Assembly (NCBI GenBank): GCA_025458125.1
Contig: JALOTA010000012.1
Span: 1 to 38,018 of the forward strand
Reading direction: 5' to 3'
DNA: 38,018 bases
Source of the DNA: Hyphomicrobium sp.
GTDB taxonomy: Bacteria; Pseudomonadota; Alphaproteobacteria; Rhizobiales; Hyphomicrobiaceae
The notes under the pieces were generated by a model. The model was not told the DNA's origin and did not search any database. It worked only from the letters and a program-made list of their open reading frames with translations. Position numbers and translations under genes: made by a program. Shown in pieces: positions 32,497 to 35,820 of this stretch (position 1 is the stretch's first letter; the number at the start of each line of letters is the position of its first letter).

Positions 32497-32538
32497 GCCC
32501 GGCGCATCCATCCACCGCTCCTTCCCTTACAGACGGTC

Positions 32539-33282
32539 ATGCTGCGCTCGCTGATTTACGCTGCCGCGTTCTACACCGTGACCGGCGTCATGCTGATCGG
32601 ACTTTCATGGCTGCTGCTGGCGCCGCGAAGCTGGGCTATGGCCGGCCTGAAACTGCACGCGCGCATCGCGGTGTGGCTGCTGGAAAACATCGTCGGCACA
32701 AAACTGGAGGTCCGCGGCCGCGAGAACCTTCCTGCTGGACCGGTCCTCGTGGTGGCCAAACATCAGTCCACATGGGACACCTTCGCGCTGATCCCGCTAT
32801 TTGCCGACCCTGCGATCGTCCTGAAGGACGAACTGAAGTGGATCCCCTTCTACGGCTGGTTCTGCGTCAAGTTCCGGCACATCCTCGTCAAGCGCGACAA
32901 GGCGGCCGTCGCACTCAAGGCACTGGTCGCCGAGGCCAAGGACCGGATCGCTCATAATCGCCAGGTGGTGATCTTCCCAGAGGGAACACGCATGGCACCG
33001 GGCGCGCCGCCCGACTACAAACCGGGATATCTGGCTCTGTATGACGCTCTCGGCGTGCCGGCAGTGCCGCTGGCTCTGAACTCCGGCCTCTTCTGGCCCC
33101 GCCGCCAGCTGATGCGATATCCCGGCACGATCGTCGTGTCGTTTCTGCCTCCCATCCCGCCGGGTCTGCCGCGCAAGCTGGCCCGCGACCGCATCGAAAC
33201 CGCCATCGAGACGGAAACGGCCGCCCTCATCGCTCAGGCCCGCGATGCCCGGGCCGGCGACGGAGCGGTTCGCGGAACATGA
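32539..33282 (+). CDS. plsC: 1-acyl-sn-glycerol-3-phosphate acyltransferase
   Basis: PlsC acylates lysophosphatidate to phosphatidate on the cytoplasmic face of the inner membrane, the branch point of phospholipid synthesis. The N-terminal helix (about 5-28) anchors it. The catalytic HX4D motif is KHQSTWD (about residue 75), block II is VKRD, and block III is IFPEGTRM. The C-terminal block VPAVPLALNSG is also present. The length of 247 residues is normal. It follows ydcF by 42 bp. The 147 bp after it contain a pair of TTGACA boxes and three phased repeats belonging to the next gene. Confidence 0.95.
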   Translation: MLRSLIYAAAFYTVTGVMLIGLSWLLLAPRSWAMAGLKLHARIAVWLLENIVGTKLEVRGRENLPAGPVLVVAKHQSTWDTFALIPLFADPAIVLKDELKWIPFYGWFCVKFRHILVKRDKAAVALKALVAEAKDRIAHNRQVVIFPEGTRMAPGAPPDYKPGYLALYDALGVPAVPLALNSGLFWPRRQLMRYPGTIVVSFLPPIPPGLPRKLARDRIETAIETETAALIAQARDARAGDGAVRGT

Positions 33283-33305
33283 CAAGCCGCGCTTGACACT
33301 ATTGA

Positions 33306-33341
33306 GAACATAAATAAAACATAAGAAGAACATTTGTTGAC
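33306..33341. promoter_or_regulatory. Three 11-bp-phased GAAC/AAAC repeats upstream of nrdJ (LexA-like)
   Basis: GAAC at 33306, AAAC at 33317 and GAAC at 33328 are each separated by N7, so starts are exactly 11 bp apart, and TGAC at 33338 continues the phase inside the -35 box. The alphaproteobacterial LexA site is GAAC-N7-GAAC, so this reads as two overlapping near-sites sharing a mismatched centre. It abuts the nrdJ promoter -35 element. A second TTGACA lies at 33293-33298. Confidence 0.55.
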
Positions 33342-33365
33342 ATATCTGGTTCGCTTCACTATATT
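33337..33365 (+). promoter_or_regulatory. Near-consensus sigma70 promoter of nrdJ
   Basis: TTGACA (33337-33342), a 17-bp spacer and TATATT (33360-33365) make a near-perfect housekeeping promoter, unusual in this GC-rich window. A transcript starting near 33372 would have a leader of about 58 nt before ATG 33430. Confidence 0.75.
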
Positions 33366-33429
33366 AGCGATTAGTTTTTCTTGAAGCCCACCCGTAGGTT
33401 AGCTGAAGCGGGTTTTGAGTTTCGGGTCC

Positions 33430-35820
33430 ATGACGAAGCGTTCCGCGTTCCCGGCTCCCATCTCGCATGAAATCTGGGAGCGGAAGTACCGGTTCAAACC
33501 GCCGGTTGACACTGGCCGTGGCCAAGTGCCGGGGCTGGCCGGCGATGCCAATCTTGACGACACGTTCCGCCGCGTTGCCGAAGCCGTCGCGGGCGCAGAG
33601 ACCGGAAAAAAGTCGCGCCAACGCTGGGCTGCCGAATTCTTCGCCGCCATTGCAGATTTCGGTTTTCTTCCCGCCGGCCGCATTCTCGCGGGTGCCGGCA
33701 CGGGCCGCGAAGTCACGCTCTTCAACTGCTTCGTGATGGGCCGGATCGAGGACGATCTCGCCTCGATCTTCGACAACGTGAAAGAAGCGGCTCTGACCAT
33801 GCAGCAGGGCGGCGGCATCGGGCACGATTTCTCGACACTGCGGCCCAAGGGCGCCCTCGTCCGGTCGATCGGCGCCGACGCCTCGGGGCCCGTAAGCTTC
33901 ATGGACGTGTGGGACGCCATGTGCCGCACGATCATGTCGGCCGGTGCGCGGCGTGGGGCCATGATGGCCACTCTGCGCTGTGATCACCCCGACATCGAGA
34001 CGTTCATCGAAGCCAAGTCCGACGCCACGCGCCTTCGTAACTTCAACCTCTCCGTTCTTGTCACCGATGCGTTCATGGAAGCGGTCGCAGCTGATGCGCC
34101 CTGGCCGCTCGTGTTTGGCGGTACGACCTACCGGGTCATCCCGGCAAAAGCACTTTGGGAGCGCCTGATGCGCGCGACCTATGACTACGCCGAACCGGGC
34201 GTGATCTTCATCGATCGCGTCAATCGACGAAACAATCTCGCCTACCTTGAGGAGATCCACGCCACTAACCCATGCGGCGAGCAGCCTCTGCCGCCTTACG
34301 GGGCTTGTCTTCTGGGATCGATCAACCTGACCCGTTTCATCCGCCGGCCGTTTTCGGATGCAGCATCGCTCGACCTCGCGGCTCTGGAAGAGAGGGTGCG
34401 TGTCGCCGTCCGGTTCCTCGACAACGTCGTCGACATATCCGGCTATCCGCTGAAAGCTCAACGCCGCGAAGCGGAATCCAAGCGCCGCATCGGTCTCGGC
34501 CTGACTGGCCTCGCCGACGCGCTCATCATGCTCGGCGTCCGTTACGGCTCTGACCGGGCAGTGGCTTTGAGCGGTCAGTGGATGCAGGCGATCTCGCGCG
34601 CAGCGTATCTCACCAGCAGCCAGATTGCTTCGGATAAAGGCGCTTTTCCGCTCTTCGACTGCGATCGGTATCTGGACCGGCCGCACATCGCAGCGCTCGA
34701 TGCCGATGTCCGCAAGGCAATCGGGCGTAATGGCATCCGCAACGGCTGCCTGACCTCGATTGCCCCCACCGGCACGATTTCTCTTTTCGCAGGCAACATC
34801 TCGAGCGGTATCGAGCCGGTTTTCGATTTCAAGATGCGCCGCCGGATTTTGGACGCCTCCGGCAAAGCTTACGAGGACATTCTGGAAGACTTCGCGCATG
34901 CGGAATATGTGCGCAATGGCGGCAACCCGGATGTGCTTTCCGAAGCCTTCGTCACAGCCGGTGAATTAACGCCGCGCGAACATCTTCGGATGCAGGCCGC
35001 TGTCCAGGCTCACGTCGATAGTTCCATATCCAAAACGATCAATTGCCCGGAATCGATTTCCTTCGATGCCTTCATGTCGGTCTATCGCGAGGCGTATGAA
35101 CTGGGCCTCAAAGGCTGCACCACCTATCGGCCAAACCCCGTGACGGGCGCCGTGCTCACACCCGTTGAAGAGCCTGCATCACAGCCCCCCGGTCCTGCTG
35201 CAATTGCCCCACCGCCGATCGTTCCGGCCGCTGCGCCGCAAACATCCAGAGCCGCTTCCGGCGCTTCGGGTGATATCGTTTATCTGTCCAAGCCCTTGGA
35301 ACGGGCGCCCGTGCTCACGGGTGCGACTTATAAACTGCGCTGGCCCGATAGCGATCACGCCATCTACATCACGATCAACGACATCGAAGTCGACGGTGTC
35401 GAACCGGGACAAGCCCCGCGAAAACGCCCGTTCGAAATCTTCATCAACACACGCAATCTGGAGCACTATGCCTGGACGGTTGCGCTGACTCGAATGATCA
35501 GCGCCGTATTCCGCCGTGGCGGCGACGTCTCCTTCGTGGCGGAGGAGTTGAAGGCCGTCTTCGATCCACAAGGCGGGCGTTTCATCGGCGGGCGGTATGT
35601 CCCCAGCCTGCTTGCCGCCATCGGCGACGTTATCGAGACTCACCTGCGCAACATCGGATTCTTGGCCCCCGGGGCGACGGCTTCATCCTCGCCACCGCCG
35701 CCAGAAGACGCCCGAAAAGTGGCAGGCGGCCGGGCCTGTCAGCGCTGCGGTCATCCGACACTGACCCGGCGCGAAGGCTGCTGGGTTTGCAGCACGTGCG
35801 GATTCTCCCGCTGCGGCTGA
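33430..35820 (+). CDS. nrdJ: Class II (adenosylcobalamin-dependent) ribonucleotide reductase
   Basis: NrdJ reduces ribonucleotides using a thiyl radical generated from adenosylcobalamin, without needing oxygen or a second subunit. The key residues are present: the first redox Cys in LFNCFVMG (C100), N280-x-C282-x-E284 in NPCGEQPLPPYGAC with the second redox Cys C293, and IAPTGTISLFAGN for substrate phosphate. After the barrel come a Pro-rich linker (about 590-620), a TSCPD-like domain, and a C-terminal Cys cluster (CQRCG ... CWVCSTCGFSRCG). The 796-residue size is that of the shorter NrdJ class, not the roughly 1200-residue rhizobial form. ATG 33430 is preferred over TTG 33415. It has its own strong promoter. 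Confidence 0.94.
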   Translation: MTKRSAFPAPISHEIWERKYRFKPPVDTGRGQVPGLAGDANLDDTFRRVAEAVAGAETGKKSRQRWAAEFFAAIADFGFLPAGRILAGAGTGREVTLFNCFVMGRIEDDLASIFDNVKEAALTMQQGGGIGHDFSTLRPKGALVRSIGADASGPVSFMDVWDAMCRTIMSAGARRGAMMATLRCDHPDIETFIEAKSDATRLRNFNLSVLVTDAFMEAVAADAPWPLVFGGTTYRVIPAKALWERLMRATYDYAEPGVIFIDRVNRRNNLAYLEEIHATNPCGEQPLPPYGACLLGSINLTRFIRRPFSDAASLDLAALEERVRVAVRFLDNVVDISGYPLKAQRREAESKRRIGLGLTGLADALIMLGVRYGSDRAVALSGQWMQAISRAAYLTSSQIASDKGAFPLFDCDRYLDRPHIAALDADVRKAIGRNGIRNGCLTSIAPTGTISLFAGNISSGIEPVFDFKMRRRILDASGKAYEDILEDFAHAEYVRNGGNPDVLSEAFVTAGELTPREHLRMQAAVQAHVDSSISKTINCPESISFDAFMSVYREAYELGLKGCTTYRPNPVTGAVLTPVEEPASQPPGPAAIAPPPIVPAAAPQTSRAASGASGDIVYLSKPLERAPVLTGATYKLRWPDSDHAIYITINDIEVDGVEPGQAPRKRPFEIFINTRNLEHYAWTVALTRMISAVFRRGGDVSFVAEELKAVFDPQGGRFIGGRYVPSLLAAIGDVIETHLRNIGFLAPGATASSSPPPPEDARKVAGGRACQRCGHPTLTRREGCWVCSTCGFSRCG

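Follow-up and report, generated by a model that had tools for sequence, protein, structure and literature searches.

The window analyzed here, a 38,018-nucleotide stretch of Hyphomicrobium sp. DNA taken as a whole, contains an intergenic region that separates a PlsC-like acyltransferase gene from the gene for a short NrdJ and that carries a promoter preceded by three phased half sites (Table 1). A first-pass annotation made from the letters alone had described half sites GAAC, AAAC, and GAAC that start exactly 11 bp apart and run into the -35 element of a TTGACA-N17-TATATT promoter; the phasing proved exact to the base, and the promoter was present before nrdJ at positions 33337-33365. The central half site, described as common to two registers, was real as anatomy and recurred in relatives. 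Because it reads AAAC, neither N7 register of the window is perfect: each combines one perfect with one degenerate half site and carries one mismatch.

Table 1. Features of the short nrdJ locus and its promoter region in the window
Feature	Positions	Strand	Remarks
Upstream acyltransferase gene (PlsC-like)	32539..33282	+	147 bp 5′ of nrdJ
Intergenic region	33283-33429		147 bp; PlsC-like acyltransferase gene on one side, short nrdJ on the other
Upstream TTGACA	33293..33298	+	Within genus-conserved block TGACACTATTGAGAAC
Distal LexA half site (predicted), GAAC	33306..33309	+	Invariant in 7/7 congener loci
Central degenerate half site, AAAC	33317..33320	+	GAAT/GAAC in congeners; common to two overlapping N7 registers
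Proximal LexA half site (predicted), GAAC	33328..33331	+	5 bp upstream of -35
-35 element, TTGACA	33337..33342	+	TTGAC invariant in 7 congener loci
-10 element, TATATT	33360..33365	+	17-bp spacer from -35
Short nrdJ, adenosylcobalamin-dependent ribonucleoside-diphosphate reductase	33430..35820	+	796 aa; TSCPD domain, C-terminal cysteine cluster

The promoter region and the short NrdJ

The pattern GAAC-N7-RAAC-N7-GAAC occurred twice in the 2.92-Mb assembly, both times 5′ of a short nrdJ (in the window and at an orthologous locus on contig C13), and the reversed pattern, searched as a control, gave no match. When the 147-bp intergenic region was dinucleotide shuffled 50,000 times, the three-half-site pattern never appeared; the outer pair alone, GAAC-N18-GAAC, was found in 74 shuffles.

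The downstream gene had been read as encoding a B12-dependent ribonucleotide reductase, and a match to NrdJ_Z (TIGR02504) of 583 bits, above the curated cut-off of 400, bore this out. The profile search also matched PF02867, PF00317, and PF12637 to the short NrdJ. Residues C100, N280, C282, E284, and C293, together with the C-terminal cysteines, were invariant among 14 orthologs, and the five named residues presumably represent the catalytic cysteine triad and the N and E residues. Set against NrdJ_Z, the short NrdJ showed no unusual features, and the promoter alone is notable.

An additional TTGACA upstream of the array had been taken to suggest tandem promoters, an idea that did not hold up. 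The hexamer was retained unchanged in the window and C13 alone; at its position five congeners read GTGACA, and no convincing -10 element lies downstream. Tandem promoters are therefore unsupported, and we rejected the upstream TTGACA as a second promoter. The genus-conserved block around it, found at 33294-33309 and at congener loci L038-L042, runs into the first half site, and in most congeners a second TGACAC copy is located about 17 bp upstream of this block.

Conservation of the half sites

At seven congener loci, the outer GAAC half sites, 22 bp apart, were invariant, the central half site read AAAC in three, GAAT in three, and GAAC in one, and the spacers drifted; the block ended in GAACAT-N3-TTGAC. 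Contig C13 belongs to the same assembly, is 4.5 kb long, and has an orthologous locus with an exact GAAC-N7-GAAC, the window registers having one mismatch each. Since C13 aligns collinearly with the window locus from end to end at 79.5% DNA identity, and since each of five congeners has one short nrdJ form, its gene was rejected as a paralog, and the contig probably derives from a contaminating congener.

Examination of nrdJ upstream regions in relatives, a check proposed with the first-pass annotation, found the box conserved at family and order level and in several further alphaproteobacterial groups, with boxes at named loci of Hyphomicrobium, Filomicrobium, Skermanella, Asaia-labelled, Dongia, Kiloniellaceae, and other Rhodospirillales-like genomes. 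An exact GAAC-N7-GAAC was located upstream of 22 of 44 short nrdJ genes and any other spacing (2 to 15) upstream of at most one, a comparison within the same sequences that is a safer control than counts of related genomes, which are non-independent samples. With one mismatch allowed, the N7 box preceded 43 of the 44 genes versus 3 to 11 of 44 at other spacings, although the counts obtained with one mismatch are in part too high at N7 and N8 wherever a -35 TTGACC mimics GAAC. The excess of one-mismatch N8 matches in the named loci probably arises from this mimicry at a 6-bp gap.

Third half sites counted on either side may be inflated in the same way. We therefore preferred an anchored count, which examines the upstream side only and so escapes the TTGACC mimicry; 65 promoters were aligned on the GAAC adjoining TTGAC, and the 23 of 88 sequences lacking this anchor were left out. 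A half site with no more than one mismatch stood at -11 from the anchor in 64 of the 65 promoters, a third one at -22 in 32 (18 of them exact), and another at -33 in three, with control offsets giving a half site in approximately 4%. Nearly every anchored promoter thus has at least two half sites, and roughly half of the anchored set has three. Furthermore, a 17-bp spacer yielded the best -10 element in 31 of 40 relatives.

Phased A-rich tracts could also serve as an UP element or as curved DNA that strengthens the promoter without LexA, and the AT-rich spacers and the position of the array just upstream of the -35 element would suit such a role. In the anchored promoters, however, the half-site columns were 91-100% conserved except for the G at -11 (63%), whereas most spacer columns reached 49-60%. 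The half sites moreover repeat in exact 11-bp steps, and the same motif precedes lexA, recA, and imuA, as described below; we regard this explanation as very improbable.

No box was found before the short nrdJ in 33 Rhodobacteraceae-type loci, indicating that LexA control of the short nrdJ would not be universal. At loci such as L162, L165, and L170, the short nrdJ has no LexA-like box of any kind and the long NrdJ is also kept. The idea that box-less Rhodobacteraceae might rely on the short NrdJ as sole reductase was refuted by the presence of the long form in all 16 Rhodobacteraceae-type genomes tested.

LexA-type boxes at SOS genes and the search for other regulators

The organism's own lexA, recA, and imu promoters, whose inspection had likewise been proposed, were found to carry GAAC-N7-GAAC or GAAC-N7-GTAC boxes in the same genome. 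The single lexA gene, on contig C167 (G000:C167), was identified by TIGR00498, PF00717 (S24), and PF01726 (DNA-binding domain); GAACGGGGCGGGAAC lies about 90-100 bp before its start and is followed by GTAC in phase. The exact motif preceded lexA in 28 of the 29 loci with enough sequence. The own lexA operator (L009, 1411-1436) is a phased triple, GAAC-N7-GAAC-N7-GTAC, the last half site of which touches the -10 region. Upstream of the own recA the box is GAACATAAAGAGTAC, and a recA box with no more than one mismatch, commonly GAAC-N7-GTAC, was detected in 28 of 30 genomes; GTAC, the last half site of the lexA triple, is also the second half site of recA. The imuA-imuB-dnaE2 operon was recognized from its gene order and an IMS domain, and its first gene is preceded by GTTCTTGTATTGTTC and GAACAAAACATGTAC. 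Two further GAAC-N7-GAAC boxes, on opposite strands of a single intergenic region, are located at G000:C28:33650-33711 (L011, L028) before the gene for a small protein (MRTYLVSYDLAKPHLTK...), which is a candidate for a further SOS gene.

A long NrdJ of about 1250 aa is also encoded in the same genomes, the window's assembly having a fragment on contig C90. In the regions upstream of the long form, exact GAAC-N7-GAAC occurred in none of 20 genomes, and with one mismatch allowed it occurred in two of 20, which is the baseline given by other spacings. In some congeners (L222, L223, and L224), CCACTA-N-ATNTAGTGG palindromes that resemble NrdR boxes, at two mismatches from the NrdR consensus used, were seen some 320 bp upstream of the start of the long nrdJ. 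This pattern suggests a division in which NrdR would govern the housekeeping (long) enzyme and LexA the accessory (short) one.

Neither an NrdR box nor a cobalamin riboswitch had been evident at first reading of the window, and both statements stood. An Rfam search of 32500-34500 returned no match at E up to 1, so no cobalamin riboswitch was found there, and an NrdR-like box within two mismatches was found before none of the 44 short nrdJ genes. FNR-like sites were also missing from all 44 upstream regions. These results bear on the proposal that another regulator occupies the array, be it of the anaerobic FNR type, NrdR, or a different S24-type repressor. Such a regulator would accord with Sphingopyxis granuli, in which the class II nrdZ is strongly induced by anaerobiosis (PMC6472365), and in the same anaerobiosis experiment SOS genes rise together with nrdZ (PMC6472365). 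Against it stand the missing FNR-like sites and NrdR-like boxes and the identity of the array motif with the organism's own lexA motif, and we hold control by another regulator to be extremely unlikely.

Predicted LexA control of nrdJ

The first-pass annotation had raised the possibility that a GAAC-N7-GAAC LexA-type array places a class II reductase under SOS control, and the motif at the own lexA together with its conservation before nrdJ supported this. Of the two refuting conditions named with that annotation, loss of the repeats before orthologous nrdJ genes and a different motif at the own lexA promoter, neither was borne out. Because the own lexA, recA, and imu promoters bear the same motif and the long NrdJ does not, and because the GAAC positions hold while the spacers vary, we consider it highly likely, on this comparative evidence, that the array is a LexA operator and makes the accessory class II reductase a member of the SOS regulon. 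Expression of nrdJ would then probably be switched on upon DNA damage. In the proposed mechanism, LexA on the array would cover the DNA just upstream of and up to the -35 element and block RNA polymerase, and RecA-stimulated self-cleavage of LexA after DNA damage would free the nrdJ promoter. The accessory oxygen-independent, adenosylcobalamin-requiring reductase would consequently rise and provide dNTPs for repair and for translesion synthesis by ImuB/DnaE2, routine dNTP synthesis presumably being done by the long ~1250-aa NrdJ.

Since the array is situated 5′ of the -35 element and not across the core promoter, LexA could alternatively be an activator or modulator that touches the polymerase from upstream of -35. 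The gap between the last GAAC and TTGAC is tight, 5 or 6 bp in 58 of the 65 anchored orthologs, as for a class II-like activator position, and LexA reportedly activates recA in Rhodobacter sphaeroides, which would favor such a role. A near-consensus sigma-70 promoter, however, should need no activator, and repression is the usual outcome for alphaproteobacterial LexA (PMC12700426); we therefore judge activation unlikely.

It is conceivable, though doubtful, that the phased triple is a LexA operator architecture of its own, in which dimers use two overlapping registers or sit head to tail about a shared but weakened center, and that it tunes the accessory reductase to a particular stage of the SOS response. 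Three phased sites are found again at many alphaproteobacterial nrdJ promoters and possibly at lexA, as GAAC-N7-GAAC-N7-GTAC.

Among the papers searched, none was found that reports LexA control of nrdJ in Alphaproteobacteria, but nrdJ may have been listed earlier in SOS regulon surveys. With nrdJ, a known regulator would gain a new target. If LexA control is true, a B12-dependent, oxygen-independent dNTP supply would be tied to DNA damage across much of the Alphaproteobacteria, which would help to explain why a second, short NrdJ is kept beside the long one and would point to a cobalamin dependence of SOS capacity.

The Caulobacter LexA consensus is GTTCN7GTTC (PMC12700426; PMC4211646). The nrdJ array resembles the alphaproteobacterial LexA box of Caulobacter, Rhodobacter, and Rhizobium in half site, spacing, and orientation, but differs from it in having three phased half sites, a degenerate center, and a B12-dependent reductase as its target. 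Other bacteria also place ribonucleotide reductase under SOS or DNA-damage control and so increase dNTP synthesis within the damage response; here, by contrast, the enzyme predicted to be controlled is a class II (adenosylcobalamin) reductase that is accessory to another class II enzyme.
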